The notes below the pieces were generated by a model, which was given only the letters and a program-made list of their open reading frames with translations, did no database searches and was not told where the DNA came from. From positions 62,001-126,000 of the forward strand of contig NZ_SPQK01000001.1 of NCBI RefSeq assembly GCF_004570875.1: a DNA stretch of 64,000 nt, written 5' to 3'. Of this stretch, positions 1,928 through 10,756 are shown one piece after another (position 1 is the stretch's first letter; each line of letters starts with the position of its first letter). The position numbers were made by a program, and so were the translations under genes. The DNA is from Blastococcus sp. CT_GayMR16. GTDB taxonomy: Bacteria > Actinomycetota > Actinomycetes > Mycobacteriales > Geodermatophilaceae.

Positions 1928-3313
1928 TCAGGCGGAGTCGGCCCGGTTATCGGCTTCTGCCGGCCGTTCCTCCAGGCCCGCCGTGCCGGCGTTGTCGTAG
2001 GAGTCGTTGATCAGAACCACCTGCCGGCCTGGGCGGTCCAGGACGGAGGCGGCGATCGAGGCCCGGTAGCCCGAGCCGCAGTAGACCCACACCTCTCCCT
2101 CGGGCACCTCGTCGATCCGGTCGTCCAGCTGGTGCAGCGGGATGTGCCGGGAGCCGCGGACGTATCCCTGGGCGCGCTCGTCGTTGCGGCGGGCGTCGAG
2201 AACCTCCACCGGCCCCCGGTTCATGGCCGCGGCCAGCCCGCCGAAATCGGTCACCGGGTAGGACCGCAACGGCGCGCCGTCGGCCAGGGTCCCGATGTCG
2301 CCGACCGCGACGCCGGCGAGCTCGTCGACGCCGATCCGCACGAGTTCGCGGCGCGCGTCGGCGACCTGGTCCTCGCTCTCCCCGATCAGCGTCAGCGGCG
2401 TGCCGTAACGGTAGAGCCAGCCGAGGTAGGTGACGAAGTTGCTGGACAGCTCGAACCCCAGCGACCCCGTCAGGTGCCCGGCCGCGAACGCGGTGCGCTC
2501 CCGCAGGTCGACCACCCACTCCCCGACCTCGATCCGCCGGCGCAGCTCGCCGGGATCGACCGGTGCGGGCCGGGACAGGTCGACCGGCGCGGGGCCGCGG
2601 CGGTTGATCGGGCCCATGTGCGCGTAGTAGGCCGGGTAGGCGTCCAGGCCGGCCAGCAGGGTGTCGACGTAGTCCTGCTCGGCCAGGGTGAGCGCCGGGT
2701 TGACCTTGACCTGGTCCCCGACGGTGGAGTCGGTCCCGCTGGTCGGGGTGGCGGAGCAGAAGCTGCCGAACCCGTGGGTGGGGAACACCGCCGCCTCGGC
2801 GGGCAGTTCGCGGGCCAGACGCTGCACCGAGTGGTACTGGGCATGGGTCAGGCCGAGGGTGTCCTCGGGGGCCACCAGGTCGGTGCGGCCGGTCGCGCCG
2901 TAGAGCATCGACCCGCCGGTGAAGACGCCCTGCACCTCGCCCTCGGCGTCCTCCAGTGCATAGCTGACGTGGTGGTGCGTATGTCCTGGGGTGTGCAGCA
3001 CCCGAAGCCGCATCGTTCCCGCCTCGAACACCTCCCCGTCGCTCACCGCGAGGTGGTCGAACTCGACGTCGCTGCCCTCGGCCAGCACGTAGGCCGCGCG
3101 CGTCTGCCTGGACAGCTCCAGACCGCCGGTCACGTAGTCGTTGTGCACGTGGGTCTCCAGCACGTGCGTCACCCGTACCCCGCGCTCGGCGACCAAGGCC
3201 TGGACGCGGTCGATGTCGCGCTGCGGGTCGACCACGACGGCGACGTCGCCATCGGAGACCAGGTAGCTGCGGTCCCCCAGGCTGGAGGTCTCGATGGTCT
3301 CGATCCGGATCAT
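1928..3313 (-). CDS. MBL-fold persulfide dioxygenase-like protein with two rhodanese domains
   Basis: 461 residues. Residues 1-240 are a metallo-beta-lactamase fold with the metal loop THVHND (His55, His57, Asp59) and a later TPGHT motif, as in ETHE1/BlH persulfide dioxygenases. Residues ~265-350 are a rhodanese fold without a catalytic Cys. Residues ~365-450 are an active rhodanese with VYCGSGYRA (Cys412). The expected role is oxidation of glutathione- or other low-molecular-weight persulfide to sulfite. A CsoR/CstR-type inverted repeat lies 18 bases upstream of the ATG, so it is probably controlled by the repressor at 3753-4019. A second, divergent copy is at 8091-9437. Confidence 0.9.
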   Translation of the reverse strand: MIRIETIETSSLGDRSYLVSDGDVAVVVDPQRDIDRVQALVAERGVRVTHVLETHVHNDYVTGGLELSRQTRAAYVLAEGSDVEFDHLAVSDGEVFEAGTMRLRVLHTPGHTHHHVSYALEDAEGEVQGVFTGGSMLYGATGRTDLVAPEDTLGLTHAQYHSVQRLARELPAEAAVFPTHGFGSFCSATPTSGTDSTVGDQVKVNPALTLAEQDYVDTLLAGLDAYPAYYAHMGPINRRGPAPVDLSRPAPVDPGELRRRIEVGEWVVDLRERTAFAAGHLTGSLGFELSSNFVTYLGWLYRYGTPLTLIGESEDQVADARRELVRIGVDELAGVAVGDIGTLADGAPLRSYPVTDFGGLAAAMNRGPVEVLDARRNDERAQGYVRGSRHIPLHQLDDRIDEVPEGEVWVYCGSGYRASIAASVLDRPGRQVVLINDSYDNAGTAGLEERPAEADNRADSA

Positions 3314-3330
3314 TTCTGCTGCCTCTTCCC

Positions 3331-3344
3331 TACCCCGTAGGGTA
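3331..3344 (-). promoter_or_regulatory. CsoR/CstR-type operator before the MBL-rhodanese gene
   Basis: TACCCCGTAGGGTA, an inverted repeat TACCC-n4-GGGTA, as expected for CsoR-family operators. It lies just upstream of the start at 3313 and resembles the palindrome in front of the repressor gene. Confidence 0.65.
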
Positions 3345-3374
3345 CTGGTCCGGTAAATGAAGATGGTTGCCGCT

Positions 3375-3692
3375 TCACGCGACGGTCCCCGGCCGGCCCT
3401 CCGGAGTGACGACCGGGAGTCCGGCGTTCGCCCACTGCTTCATGCCGCCGTCCATGGTCTGCGCGTCCCAGCCGGCCTGCGTGAGGAGCTCGGTCGCCTT
3501 GCCGGCGCGCCCGCCGCTGCGGCAGACGGTGACGACGGGACGCTCGCGGTCGAGTTCGCTGACGCGGGCCGACAGTTGCCCCAGCGGGATGTGGTGCGCG
3601 CCGTCGATCCGCCCGGCGGCCCATTCGTCGTCCTCTCGGACGTCGAGCAGCTGGACCTCGTCGCGGCGTCCGTACACGGTCGTGGGTTCCAT
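3375..3692 (-). CDS. Single-domain rhodanese
   Basis: A 105-residue stand-alone rhodanese with LLDVRE near the N-terminus, active-site loop VTVCRSGGRA (Cys57) and the typical DGGMKQW segment. Such small proteins carry persulfide sulfur in the cytoplasm. It sits between the CstR-like repressor and the MBL-rhodanese gene on the same strand, and probably relays persulfide to the dioxygenase. Confidence 0.9.
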   Translation of the reverse strand: MEPTTVYGRRDEVQLLDVREDDEWAAGRIDGAHHIPLGQLSARVSELDRERPVVTVCRSGGRAGKATELLTQAGWDAQTMDGGMKQWANAGLPVVTPEGRPGTVA

Positions 3693-3752
3693 CGGTGCTC
3701 CTTTCCTACGGATCTCCCTAGCCGCCGAGCGGCGACCGGGTCATGGCGTTCG

Positions 3753-4061
<309 letters not shown>

Positions 4062-5806: not shown

Positions 5807-6424
5807 TTAGGAGTGGTGTGACACCGTCCCCCAAGCGGCGAAGATGCCGATTTTCGCGGTGACCCCGACCGAGGTCGTCGATGCAATGCACTACTGCATG
5901 CCGAGCGAGTCGTAGCCGTGGTGGACCAAGCGTGCCCTCGTGAAGAACTCCTCCACCTGGGCAGGGGTGAAGCCCAGCCAGAGGTCGGCCTGTTCCGTGC
6001 GCATCCACTCGTAGGAATGTTCCATCGCGTCGGTGACCGCGATCGTCCCGCCCGGCCGGACCACCCGCGCCATCTCGGTCACCATGGCCGCCGGGTCCGC
6101 TGCGTGGTGCAGCACCATGTTCGCCACCGCGATGTCCGCGCTGTCATCGGGCAGGGGGAGGTTGTCGAGGTCGCCTTCCATCAGGGTGACGTTGTGCACG
6201 TCGAGCGCGGCGAGGTTGTCGGCTGCCACGGCGAGCATCGCGGGAGAGTTGTCGACCCCGATCACATTGGCCACGCGGCCGGCGAGCCCCGCTGCGACGA
6301 AGCCGGTGCCGGTGCCGACGTCGATCACTGCGGAGTCGGGGCCGGCGGTGGTTCGCTGCGCCAGGGCCTCGATGACGTCAGCGTTGTAGAAGCTCGACCG
6401 CATCTGGTCCCACTGGACCGACAC
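5807..6424 (-). CDS. SAM-dependent methyltransferase with in-frame UAG (candidate selenoprotein)
   Basis: Class I methyltransferase: VIDVGTGTGFVAAGLA (SAM motif I) near residue 35, VIGVDNSPAML, and VRPGGTIAV near residue 125. The frame reaches TAG at 5891-5893 (codon 178), then continues for 27 sense codons (CIASTTSV, then AKIGIFAAWG, the usual final strand of this family) to TAA at 5807. In relatives, as I remember them, cysteine occurs at the position of the UAG, next to a second Cys. I read the UAG as selenocysteine, not termination. A second oddity: the usual N-terminal helix (VDSADVKAFFER, from a GTG at 6459) is one frame off and would join at 6424-6426. That is either a real one-base deletion or a sequence error; the coordinates use the in-frame GTG at 6424. 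Divergent from the ArsR-rhodanese gene. Confidence 0.6.
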
Positions 6425-6570: not shown

Positions 6571-7242
6571 ATGAGCCGACAGGCGGCCAAGAATGTGCTC
6601 TTCGATGCCTTCGCCGAGACGGCGCAGGCGTTCGGCAGTGGCCGCCGTGCCGAGATCGTCGACGTGCTCGCCCAGGGCGAGCGACCGGTGGACGAGGTCG
6701 CTGCCCAGGTGGGGCAGAGCGTCGCGAACACGTCGCACCATCTGCGGACGCTGGCCCGCGCCGGGCTGGTGTCCACGCGTCGCGACGGCACGCACATCTA
6801 CTACCGGCTCGCGAGCGACCGGGTGGGCGAGCTCTGGGCAGCGCTGCGCGGCGTCGCCGTGCAACACGTCGCCGGCTTGGAGCAGCTGGCCACGGCGTAC
6901 CTCGGCGACCGCAGCGAGCTCAGGACGGTCGACCGGGCGGAGCTGGCGGCTCTGGTTGCCGACGGGGAGGTCATCGTGATCGATGTCCGGCCGGCGCCGG
7001 AGTACGCCGCCGGTCACATCCCCGGTGCCTGGTCGGTGCCGCCCGAGGAGGTGCAGCGCTACCTCAGCGAACTGCCCACGGGTCGGGAGGTCGTGGCCTA
7101 TTGCCGCGGGCCCTACTGCGTCTACGCCGACGATGCCGTGCGGGAACTGACCCGTCACGGCTTCCGGGCCCGGCGGCTCGAGGACGGGTTCCCGGAATGG
7201 AAGCGGGCCGGCCTGCCTGTAGCGGCCGGGGACAGGGGCTGA
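6571..7242 (+). CDS. ArsR repressor fused to a rhodanese domain
   Basis: 223 residues. Residues 10-90 form an ArsR winged helix (SVANTSHHLRTLARAGLV recognition region). Residues ~118-218 are a rhodanese with IDVRPAPEYAAGHIPGA and the active loop AYCRGPYCV (Cys178 and Cys183). The fusion suggests that persulfide chemistry on the rhodanese Cys alters DNA binding. It starts 112 bases from the divergent methyltransferase and 2 bases ahead of the UAG methyltransferase at 7245. A weak inverted repeat (TCAA-n8-TTGA, 6524-6539) in the gap is a possible operator. Confidence 0.9.
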   Translation: MSRQAAKNVLFDAFAETAQAFGSGRRAEIVDVLAQGERPVDEVAAQVGQSVANTSHHLRTLARAGLVSTRRDGTHIYYRLASDRVGELWAALRGVAVQHVAGLEQLATAYLGDRSELRTVDRAELAALVADGEVIVIDVRPAPEYAAGHIPGAWSVPPEEVQRYLSELPTGREVVAYCRGPYCVYADDAVRELTRHGFRARRLEDGFPEWKRAGLPVAAGDRG

Positions 7243-7244
7243 TC

Positions 7245-8033
7245 ATGTCGAGCACACCGGATCTGCTGGTCGATCCTGTCGCGCTGCGGGAGCAGGTGAA
7301 GGACAAGTACCGGGAGGTGGCCGCCGATCCGAGTCGGTCCTTCCACTTCCACACCGGACGCGGACTGGCCCGGCGACTCGGCTACGACGAGGACGCCGTG
7401 GCCGCGTTGCCCGACCGGGCCGTCGAATCGTTTGCGGGTGTGGCCAACCCCTTCGAGCGTCGTCGGCTCGCCCGTGGCGATCACGTCGTGGACATCGGCT
7501 CCGGCGCCGGGTTCGACTCCTTCCTGGCCGCCGCGCAGGTCGGGCACGCCGGCCGCGTTGTCGGCGTGGACATGACCCCGGAGATGCTGGCGAAGTCGAC
7601 CGCGACCGCCGCCGAACTCGGCCTCGACCACGTCGAGTTCCGTGCCGGCCTGGCCGAGTCCCTGCCGGTGGAGGATTCCTGGGCCGATGTCGTCATCTCC
7701 AACGGCGTCATCAACCTGTGCGCGGACAAGCGCGCCGTCCTCTCCGAGATCCGCCGCGTGCTCAAGCCCGGCGGCTGGCTTCAGTTCGCCGACATCGCCA
7801 ACGGCCTCCCGGTGCCGGAGGGCGCGCTTCGCGACATCGATCTGTGGACCGGCTAGATAGCCGGCGGGCTGCCCCGTGTGGGCTGGCAGAAGATGCTCAC
7901 CGAGATCGGCTTCACCGACATCGCCATCGGCGACCCGGTCGACACATTCGGCGGCGCCGGAGGCGAGACCAACGCGCGCGCCTACGAGGTGTACGGCTAC
8001 TCCTTCCTGGCGCGCAAGCCGGATGCCCACTAG
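7245..8033 (+). CDS. ArsM-like SAM methyltransferase with UAG at the catalytic-Cys position (candidate selenoprotein)
   Basis: 262 codons counting the UAG. SAM motif I is VVDIGSGAGFDSFLAA near residue 85, then VVGVDMTPEML and VLKPGGWLQFADI. The frame meets TAG at 7854-7856 (codon 204), then stays open for 58 codons to TAG at 8031, reading IAGGLPRVGWQKMLTEIGF and ending YGYSFLARKP, the normal C-terminus of this family. The local context LWTG-UAG-IAGGL matches the LWxxC(I/L)xGG segment of arsenite methyltransferases, where the Cys (human AS3MT Cys206) binds the metalloid. So the UAG replaces a catalytic Cys codon. A possible SECIS-like stem, GCCGGC pairing with GCTGGC, begins 3 bases after the UAG. 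It lies in one operon with an ArsR-rhodanese regulator and an MBL-rhodanese protein. Confidence 0.8.
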
Positions 8034-8090: not shown

Positions 8091-9437
8091 GTGGTCGAGG
8101 TCATTCCGCTGGTCGACAGCGGGCTGGGTAACAGTGCCTACCTGGTCGGTATCGGCGGTGGCCGCGCGCTGGTGATCGACCCCAGCCGGGATCTGCGCGC
8201 GGTGGACGCCGCCGCCGAGCGGTACGGGCTCCACGTGGTCGCCGCGGCGGACACCCATCTGCACGCCGACTTCCTCACCGGGGCGACCCGGCTGGCCGCC
8301 CGCGACGACGCGACGGTGTATGCCTCGGCCGTCGGCGGGCGGGAGTTCCCCCACACCGGCCTGGGCGACGGCGACGAGGTCGACCTCGGCGGGCTGACGT
8401 TGCGGGCCTGGGCGACCCCGGGCCACACCGGCGAGCACGTCGCCTACCTGCTGCTCGACGGCGCGATGACCCTGGGGGTGTTCACCGGCGGCTCGCTGAT
8501 CGTCGGCGCCGCGGCCCGCACCGACCTGGCCTCACCGGAGCAGACCGAGCCGCTGGCTCGCGCCCAGTACGCCTCGCTGCAGCGGCTGGCCACGCTGCCC
8601 GACGACACCCCGGTGTGGCCGACGCACGGTGCCGGCTCGTTCTGCTCCGCGCCGCCGGGTGCGGAGCGGACCACCACCATCGGCCGCGAGAAGGCGTCCA
8701 ACCCGCTGCTGGCCGCACCCGATGAGGACGCGTTCGTCACCACGCTGCTGGGCAGCCTGGGCACGTTCCCGCCGTACTTTCTGCGACTGGCCGAGATCAA
8801 CCGCCGTGGGCCGGCACTCCCCCCGGCCGGCAACGCCCTGCCGTCGCTGACGGTTGATCAGGTGATGGGGGCCGCCGGCGCCGAGATGATCGACGTCCGT
8901 CCGCCCGTCGACTACGCCGCCGGGCACGTCCCCGGCTCGCTCGCCAACACCCTGAGGCCGGCGTTCGCGACCTGGCTGGGGTGGCTGGTCCCCGACCCCG
9001 CGACGCCGCTGATGTTCGTCCGCAACGACGATCAGGATCCCGAGGAGATCGTCTGGCAGGCGCGGAAAATCGGCTACGACCACCTCGTCGGCGAACTCGC
9101 CGGTGGCATCTCCGCCTGGGTCGCCGCCGGGCAGCCGGTCGCCACCGTCCCACTGCTGGACGCCGGCGACGTGGACCCCGCCCGGGTCGTCGACGTCCGG
9201 CAGGTGAGCGAGTACGCCGGCGGACACCTGCCGGCCGCCCGCAATGTCGAGCTCGGCTCGCTGCCCAGCGTGAACCTGCCGGCCGGGCCGGTGGTCACGA
9301 TGTGCGGGCACGGCGAGCGGGCCACCACCGCCGCCAGCGTGCTGGAGCGAGCCGGCCACTCCGGCGTCGCCGTCCTCGCCGCAGGCGCCGACGAGTGGGC
9401 GACGGCCACCGGCACCGCTCTCGAGGTGGCCGGGTGA
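8091..9437 (+). CDS. Second MBL-fold persulfide dioxygenase-like protein with two rhodanese domains
   Basis: 448 residues from a GTG. The MBL metal loop is DTHLHADF (His56, His58, Asp60), with TPGHTGEH later. Two rhodanese folds follow (~255-345, without catalytic Cys, and ~355-445 with TMCGHGERA, Cys405). It has the same architecture as 1928-3313 but is clearly a diverged paralogue. It lies between the UAG methyltransferase and an MFS transporter whose start overlaps its stop (GTGA). Confidence 0.9.
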   Translation: MVEVIPLVDSGLGNSAYLVGIGGGRALVIDPSRDLRAVDAAAERYGLHVVAAADTHLHADFLTGATRLAARDDATVYASAVGGREFPHTGLGDGDEVDLGGLTLRAWATPGHTGEHVAYLLLDGAMTLGVFTGGSLIVGAAARTDLASPEQTEPLARAQYASLQRLATLPDDTPVWPTHGAGSFCSAPPGAERTTTIGREKASNPLLAAPDEDAFVTTLLGSLGTFPPYFLRLAEINRRGPALPPAGNALPSLTVDQVMGAAGAEMIDVRPPVDYAAGHVPGSLANTLRPAFATWLGWLVPDPATPLMFVRNDDQDPEEIVWQARKIGYDHLVGELAGGISAWVAAGQPVATVPLLDAGDVDPARVVDVRQVSEYAGGHLPAARNVELGSLPSVNLPAGPVVTMCGHGERATTAASVLERAGHSGVAVLAAGADEWATATGTALEVAG

Positions 9438-10756
9438 GCGCACCGGTGGACGACGCCGGCGTCGCCTGGCCGAGGCCGGTCGGTGCACCGCCGGTGCGGC
9501 TCGGGCTGCGCGCCAACCATGCCCAGTTCATCCTGCTCGTCGCCGTCAACGCACTCGTCGGAGCGACGCTGGGCCAGGAGCGGACCGTCGTGCCGCTGCT
9601 CGCCGAGCAGACGTTCGGCCAGTCGGGCTTCAGCTCCGGACTGCTGTTCATCGTCGCGTTCGGGCTGGTGAAGGCCGTCACGAACTTCTTCGCGGGCACG
9701 TGGTCTGACCGGTTCGGCCGCAAGCCGGTGCTGGTCGCCGGGTGGCTGATCGCGTTGCCGGTGCCGGCCATCCTGATCTGGGGCCCGAGCTGGTGGTGGA
9801 TCGTCGCCGCCAACGTGCTGCTCGGCGTCAACCAGGGACTGACCTGGTCCACCACCGTGATCATGAAGATCGACCTGGTCGGCCCCAGCCGCCGCGGCCT
9901 CGCGATGGGGCTCAACGAGGCAGCCGGCTACGGGGCGGTCGCCGTCACCGCGCTGGCCACCGGCTGGCTGGCCGCGGCCTACGGGCTGCGCCCGGCGCCC
10001 TTCCTGCTCGGCGCCGCCGCCATCGCACTCGGCCTCGGCCTGTCTGGGCTGGCGGTCAAGGAGACCCTCGGGCACGCCCGACTCGAGGCCGCACAGCACG
10101 TCACGACCGACGGCGACCTGCACGCCGAACTGTCCACCCGCGAGGTCGCCGTCCTCACCTCGTTCCGGGAGCGGGCAATGTCTGCGGCCAGCCAGGCCGG
10201 CCTGGTCAACAACGTCAACGACGGCCTGGCCTGGGGCCTCTTCCCTGTGCTGTTCGTCAGCCACGGGCTGTCGGTCGGGCAGGTCGGGGTCCTGGCCGCG
10301 CTCTACCCGGCCGTGTGGGGGGCGGGACAGCTGATCACCGGCGCCCTGTCGGACCGGATCGGCCGCAAGTGGCTCATCGCCACCGGCATGTGGGTGCAGG
10401 CCGCCGCCCTCGGCCTGGGAGCGATCGGCACCACGTTCAGCAGCTGGGCCCTCGCGGCGGTGCTGCTCGGCGCCGGCACCGCGATGGTCTACCCGACACT
10501 GCTCGCCGTGATCGGCGACGTCGCCCACCCGGCCTGGCGCGCCCGCTCGGTAGGCGTGTACCGGCTGTGGCGCGACGGCGGGTTCGCCGTGGGTGCGCTG
10601 CTGGCCGGCGTCCTGGCCGACGCCTACGGGATCCTCACCGCGATCTGGGTCGTCGCCGCGCTGACCGGCGTCTCCGGCGTCGTCGTCGCGGTGCGGATGT
10701 ACGAGACGCACAGTCAGCCCGCCGGCGCCTCCGGTCCGGCCGGCCCGGTGGGATAG
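9434..10756 (+). CDS. MFS transporter
   Basis: 440 residues, 12 predicted membrane helices, with the MFS loop motif GTWSDRFGRKPVLVAG after helix 2 and a second copy GALSDRIGRKWLIATG in the C-terminal half. Starts at a GTG overlapping the MBL-rhodanese stop. Substrate unknown; position in the operon suggests export of a product of the methyltransferase or sulfur enzymes. Confidence 0.88.
   Translation: MSAPVDDAGVAWPRPVGAPPVRLGLRANHAQFILLVAVNALVGATLGQERTVVPLLAEQTFGQSGFSSGLLFIVAFGLVKAVTNFFAGTWSDRFGRKPVLVAGWLIALPVPAILIWGPSWWWIVAANVLLGVNQGLTWSTTVIMKIDLVGPSRRGLAMGLNEAAGYGAVAVTALATGWLAAAYGLRPAPFLLGAAAIALGLGLSGLAVKETLGHARLEAAQHVTTDGDLHAELSTREVAVLTSFRERAMSAASQAGLVNNVNDGLAWGLFPVLFVSHGLSVGQVGVLAALYPAVWGAGQLITGALSDRIGRKWLIATGMWVQAAALGLGAIGTTFSSWALAAVLLGAGTAMVYPTLLAVIGDVAHPAWRARSVGVYRLWRDGGFAVGALLAGVLADAYGILTAIWVVAALTGVSGVVVAVRMYETHSQPAGASGPAGPVG

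Follow-up and report, generated by a model that had tools for sequence, protein, structure and literature searches.

An in-frame UAG codon very probably encodes selenocysteine in an ArsM-like methyltransferase of Blastococcus

UAG-decoding tRNA-Sec and UAG-encoded selenoproteins of the Geodermatophilaceae were reportedly described by Mukai et al. in 2016. In the passages devoted to this family, Santesmases et al. (2017; PMC5330540), who cite that study, place tRNA-Sec with a CUA anticodon in three Geodermatophilaceae genomes and UAG in the genes for formate dehydrogenase (FDH), UGSC, and AhpC, and a further paper states at the relevant point that UAG specifies selenocysteine (Sec) in Blastococcus (PMC5133445). 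Both agree with an earlier reading of the present DNA made without database searches (the sequence-only reading), which had referred to reports of UAG-Sec in Geodermatophilus and Blastococcus. Arsenite S-adenosylmethyltransferase, for its part, is named as a UGA selenoprotein family in passages of four papers (PMC2398784, PMC5029168, PMC9312934, and PMC13188914). UAG-Sec in the Geodermatophilaceae and UGA-Sec ArsM proteins are already known; what we add is a UAG-coded member, the history of its codon, and the context of its clade. Our literature search, which covered mainly open-access papers and in part only the top-ranked ones, returned no report of a UAG-encoded methyltransferase, and the gene described here appears to add a fourth UAG-Sec protein family for the Geodermatophilaceae to the three in the passages of PMC5330540. 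It shares with the system described there the CUA tRNA-Sec, the use of UAG for UGA at Sec sites, and the bacterial family itself; however, the proteins treated in those passages are FDH, UGSC-motif, and AhpC proteins, with no methyltransferase named, whereas the present comparison sets the UGA form of one gene against its UAG form within the family. With the ArsM UGA selenoproteins it has in common a Sec residue in an ArsM-like protein, including the UxxG motif given in a passage of PMC13188914. It differs from them in that the codon is UAG and probably also in that its clade lacks the other two arsenic cysteines.

The gene lies on the forward strand of a 64,000-nucleotide stretch of Blastococcus sp. 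CT_GayMR16 (hereafter the window), at positions 7245 to 8033, from an ATG start codon to a terminal TAG at 8031 to 8033. The sequence-only reading had described this frame as open except for a TAG at 7854, with the family C-terminus encoded after it. Reading the frame confirmed that its single internal stop is the TAG at 7854 to 7856, which is codon 204 of 263, and the C-terminus matches the one quoted. The position of this codon is highly restricted: each of the 110 loci compared (the best 80 loci of a wider scan of genome contigs plus 30 Geodermatophilaceae loci) has Cys or a stop there, and it is the sole invariant Cys of a 39-sequence alignment in which recoded stops were read as Cys, indicating that the TAG was not placed by chance. 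Each of the six family genomes with an orthologue (73 to 100% identity, the host genome included) has exactly one TAG in the gene, always at codon 204. The terminal stop of these orthologues is TAG in four of the six and TGA in two; since UAG also ends the same gene, it would be recoded in context and not reassigned. In the proposed mechanism, the UAG at codon 204 would be decoded as Sec by SelB and a tRNA-Sec with the anticodon CUA, giving a product of 262 residues. We consider it very probable that the gene encodes such a full-length UAG selenoprotein, a class I SAM methyltransferase of the ArsM superfamily with Sec204 inserted through SelB and the CUA tRNA-Sec. Gene structure, Sec machinery, codon-anticodon agreement, the Cys/UGA/UAG alternation, selection, and the predicted fold were all read from sequence, and from them we infer actual Sec insertion.

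The closest solved structures were those of ArsM and AS3MT, which made up the top five profile matches and the top 13 Foldseek matches (TM-score of 0.60 to 0.71 by query). The fold is like that of ArsM in the crystal structures 4fr0, 4kw7, and 6cx6, from a red alga, and of human AS3MT (8xt7). In the profile alignment, Sec204 falls on ArsM C224 (as numbered in 4fr0 and 4kw7), whereas C72 is replaced by V66 and C174 by G154. These three ArsM cysteines are presumably the conserved As(III)-binding residues. No member of the Sec clade or its single-Cys relatives has a Cys at the C72 or C174 equivalent where the sites are covered, one sequence (L135) being uncovered at the first. With two of the three ArsM cysteines missing, a three-thiolate arsenite site is unavailable, and "ArsM-like" thus names the fold and not the substrate. 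Profile scores point the same way: the protein scored 210.7 bits against NF008823, below the cut-off of 263, and it fell under the cut-off of each of the best 25 of 33 matched NCBIfam families, as did three relatives. Along with NF008823, the best-scoring families were the ArsM-AhpD, MTase-UXPK-star, and ArsM-DUF2284 selenoproteins (NF041537, NF047649, and NF041536, respectively), but the scores for these lie far below their cut-offs and the protein has no AhpD, UXPK-star, or DUF2284 part. As far as its sequence indicates, then, the enzyme is no canonical arsenite methyltransferase. Sec204 would be the sole chalcogen residue kept, the other two arsenic ligands having been lost, and its selenolate may hold a soft substrate for methylation. 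The sequence-only reading had the UAG replace the metalloid-binding Cys of ArsM; the positional half of that claim stands, with Sec204 on C224, but the link to arsenic is weak given the Val and Gly at the other two sites. Standard annotation would either name members of this single-Sec/single-Cys ArsM-like clade arsenite methyltransferases or end the protein at residue 203. We think it unlikely that the enzyme is a genuine arsenite methyltransferase with Sec in place of one thiol ligand. Its nearest solved fold and its nearest family are those of ArsM, and arsenite S-adenosylmethyltransferase counts as a UGA selenoprotein family in passages of PMC2398784 and PMC5029168, but the lost cysteines and the subthreshold NF008823 score speak against it, as do neighbours that are recurrently sulfur-transfer genes; in a scan of ten window proteins, no arsenic family other than that of an ArsR-type regulator exceeded its cut-off. 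A second open reading frame with a methyltransferase domain lies just upstream on the reverse strand (5891 to 6424), with similarity to ArsM at 87 bits, below the cut-off.

The genes on either side, all on the forward strand, bear on the substrate. Directly upstream is an ArsR/SmtB-type regulator fused to a rhodanese domain (6571 to 7242), and directly downstream is a protein with an MBL-type N terminus and rhodanese domains (8091 to 9437); both are recurrent partners. An MFS transporter of uncertain start codon (9446 to 10756) is the fourth gene of the cassette. The MBL part of the downstream protein is GloB-like but below cut-off (TIGR03413, 71 bits), Pfam called the rhodanese part alone, and the protein resembles a sulfur dioxygenase only weakly (NF040641, 35 bits; cut-off 625). 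Among 43 other loci of the clade, we found ArsR-rhodanese genes at 10, DsrE at 8, OsmC at 8, MBL-rhodanese at 7, and MFS at 7, with at least one of these at 22 loci. At 41 three-Cys ArsM loci, in contrast, DsrE, OsmC, MBL-rhodanese, and MFS genes were found at none, and four loci matched the helix-turn-helix (HTH) part of the ArsR query alone. The difference (Fisher P = 1.4e-8, or 1.9e-4 without the two donor loci and with the HTH matches counted) is biased toward the clade, from which the query proteins were taken and five loci of which were read with longer flanks. The sulfur cassette was absent within 10 to 13 kb around the gene in two genomes (G107 and G058), and a DsrE query had no match in the window at E ≤ 1e-3. 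Because rhodanese, DsrE, OsmC, and MBL-rhodanese genes recur beside clade members, this neighbourhood suggests that the substrate is sulfane sulfur or sulfide (or selenide or tellurite) rather than arsenite, a sulfur-type reading to which we give a little less than an even chance. More tentatively, and with some doubt, the enzyme may be a Sec-dependent methyltransferase that acts on reactive sulfur, in the form of hydrosulfide or persulfide; its gene stands with those for the ArsR-rhodanese and MBL-rhodanese proteins, and its Sec codon would have gone from UGA to UAG along with the anticodon in one family. For the single-Sec/single-Cys clade, a sulfur-type substrate is a testable pointer. A selenide or tellurite methyltransferase acting as a soft-metalloid detoxifier would suit an active-site Sec and a fold akin to those of metalloid methyltransferases; we nevertheless regard it as improbable, as the neighbours suggest sulfane sulfur and the scan of ten window proteins revealed no Se- or Te-specific partner. 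In two genomes (G104, L112:3622-3978; G008, L113:6410-6775), the Sec methyltransferase gene is separated from the MBL-rhodanese gene by a DsrE-like gene. A second sulfur-type cluster is found near the Sec gene on the reverse strand of the window (1928 to 4061) and comprises an MBL-rhodanese gene (1931 to 3313), a single rhodanese gene (3378 to 3692), and a CsoR-type repressor gene (3756 to 4061).

The sequence after the TAG shows signs of selection. Downstream of it, dN was below dS in all 15 orthologue pairs; dN/dS ranged from 0.05 to 0.68 there (the highest values in pairs with one orthologue, L013), compared with 0.12 to 0.31 upstream, where the downstream figures come from just 55 codons and a constrained SECIS would itself lower dS. 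Within codons 205 to 217, seven of the eight codons with an invariant degenerate residue do not vary among the six genes (Fisher P = 0.0014 versus the rest), although this region was picked post hoc and codons 181 to 200 are conserved too (10 of 16). The codon directly after the TAG is ATA (Ile) in all six orthologues, a triplet that serves for 1 of the 55 Ile residues encoded by six nearby genes. An AlphaFold2 model with Cys in place of Sec had a mean pLDDT of 93.9 and confident strands at residues 224 to 228 and 250 to 257, so that a product ending at residue 203 would lack some of the fold; in the model, the sequence after the TAG belongs to the predicted fold. A pseudogene or sequencing error, in which the TAG truncates the protein and the remainder is a relic, is very improbable: a stop does stand in frame, followed by an unexceptional hairpin, but six species share the codon, TGA or Cys occupies the position elsewhere, dN is below dS downstream, and the C-terminus lies in the predicted fold. 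The sequence-only reading, too, had thought a decayed gene unlikely, and the shared codon and the 15 pairs bear it out.

Next, we turned to the Sec machinery of the host genome. Its tRNA-Sec gene (C11:255577-255668) scored 66.4 bits on the tRNA-Sec model and lies in the same contig as the window itself; ARAGORN read its anticodon as CTA, and a selA open reading frame lies 33 bp away. The genes selB (581 amino acids), selA (438 amino acids), and selD (335 amino acids) are all in the tRNA-Sec cluster, each above its NCBIfam cut-off. Thus, the genes for which the sequence-only reading had suggested a genome-wide search (selA, selB, selD, and a tRNA-Sec with a CUA anticodon) are all present, and the tRNA-Sec is of the UAG type, not solely the UGA type that would have spoken against a UAG selenoprotein. 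Decoding of the UAG by a suppressor or as pyrrolysine is hardly credible: ARAGORN labels the CUA tRNA "Pyl" on account of its anticodon, and a UAG-reading, pyrrolysine-type tRNA candidate is listed for Geodermatophilus obscurus without a synthetase in a passage of a 2013 paper on pyrrolysine genes (PMC3639795), but the tRNA scores as tRNA-Sec and adjoins selA, the host genome has no pylS (best match of 22.1 bits against a cut-off of 178.15, which 1 of 14 control genomes passes), and Lys occupies the position in none of the 110 loci. Elsewhere in the host genome, the alpha subunit of FDH, encoded by fdhA on contig C22 (L119:1933), matched NF041513 at 969 bits (as a gene fragment). This gene has TAG at its Sec site and a good hairpin, its loop GGTCT lying 18 nucleotides downstream. 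The UGSC protein of the host genome has Cys and no stop, and four CMD-family matches contain no internal stop.

Codon 204 and the tRNA-Sec anticodon can be compared across relatives. We found a full orthologue in 6 of 112 family genomes, and in each of these a TAG at codon 204 goes with a CTA tRNA-Sec. One further copy, in a genome with a TCA tRNA-Sec (G070), carries TGA at codon 204; it is incomplete, lying at a contig end, and has an apparent frame break upstream. The tRNA-Sec anticodon was read in 69 of the 112 genomes, of which 62 have CTA (one, G058, also TCA) and 7 have only TCA (G066, G068, G069, G070, G072, G073, and G074). Apart from G058, with its CTA gene and extra TCA gene, no genus among the 69 has both anticodons. 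Among the best 80 loci of the wider scan, codon 204 was TGA in 17, Cys in 62, and TAG in 1, the last being a Modestobacter gene, already represented among the family genomes by G104. A tRNA-Sec (E ≤ 1e-10) was present in 17 of 17 TGA genomes versus 2 of 13 Cys genomes (Fisher P = 1.4e-6), and SelA (E ≤ 1e-20) in 15 of 17 versus 2 of 13, where the 13 Cys genomes were hand-picked from the 62 and are mostly nearest relatives. The two TGA genomes with no SelA match at that threshold both have a tRNA-Sec, and every anticodon read in these 30 genomes is TCA. In every genome where both were read, the codon-204 triplet matches the tRNA-Sec anticodon. The locus is thereby a natural case in which the Sec codon tracks the tRNA-Sec anticodon across a UGA/UAG change in one family, with UAG still stopping the same gene. 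The alternation of Cys, UGA, and UAG among homologues that the sequence-only reading had proposed to look for was found at exactly position 204, and together with the machinery and the CUA tRNA-Sec it supports the selenoprotein proposed there. Among 397 genomes drawn from the order, matches at E ≤ 1e-55 were confined to the family. Two candidates were set aside: the TGA of the G020 homologue is off position, with Cys at the site and no stop in the aligned part, and a TAG-bearing match in G104 (contig C93, L108) likewise has no stop in its aligned part. Two loci, L125 and L138, showed two stops each in their alignments; in L138 (Dehalococcoidia UBA2160), a homologue of the UGA type, the additional stop interrupts the frame upstream of the Sec codon and is attributable to assembly error or decay.

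In a 59-row tree, the TAG genes form one clade (support 99/82) nested in a Sec clade (99/95) that also holds two Cys branches (L130/L131/L134 and L143). The tree omits L123 (taken as the same gene as L010), L138 with its upstream stop, 31 of the 32 loci L171 to L202 (L185 was kept), and 18 family Cys loci (L016 and L022 to L038). Adjacent to the TAG clade stands the long branch L135, and the TGA copy from G070 (L115, an N-terminal piece only) joins at an unresolved fork close to that clade, not as its sister. The three codon states require four changes. With the canonical ArsM set as the outgroup, the tree reads as a passage from Cys to UGA-Sec and on to UAG-Sec, with some reversions to Cys, although it cannot prove direction.

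The weakest link of the UAG-Sec case is the SECIS, which appears conserved in the UAG genes and covarying in their UGA relatives. The candidate (7857 to 7883, forward strand) consists of an 18-nucleotide spacer ending in GCCC at 7871 to 7874, the loop CGTGT at 7875 to 7879, and GGGC at 7880 to 7883. Its codons are nearly invariant in the six TAG orthologues, and the stem GCCC-CGTGY-GGGC is conserved, but the hairpin in these six genes was equalled by 61 to 107 of 300 mononucleotide shuffles. The sequence-only reading had put a SECIS-like stem 3 bases after the UAG and proposed folding the RNA after 7856. Some folds do pair from the third base, whereas the best-conserved candidate has its loop 18 nucleotides after the codon, and the conserved stem at 7871 to 7883 emerged from folding without exceeding the shuffles. 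In the UGA relatives (16 of the 17 TGA loci, L135 left out), a 7-bp hairpin starts 9 nucleotides after the codon, with the loop CGTGY or TGGAN; 96.4% of its cells are paired, and 14 cells carry a change on each side. In these two measures and in the covariation score, none of 500 shuffles was as high and every slid version was lower, whereas double-change pairs (350 of 500 shuffles) and further pair types (463 of 500) were not exceptional. Best-hairpin energies differed between 23 Sec genes (6 TAG and 17 TGA loci) and 21 single-Cys genes (Mann-Whitney P = 4e-8), and the outcome was unchanged against all 62 Cys loci.

One family genome presents a further arrangement. In G058 (L039:1169-2157), a UCA tRNA-Sec gene lies about 300 bp from an AhpD-like open reading frame that has an in-frame TGA in the context CFY-U-MESH and a hairpin after it. 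The same genome has a CUA tRNA-Sec (L103) and is thus a UAG-Sec genome. By the gene content of G058, UGA as well as UAG appears to be read there as Sec, by way of two tRNA-Sec genes; the UCA tRNA-Sec and the AhpD-like frame may have come in together as an imported UGA-Sec cassette, which would leave this genome with two codons for Sec.
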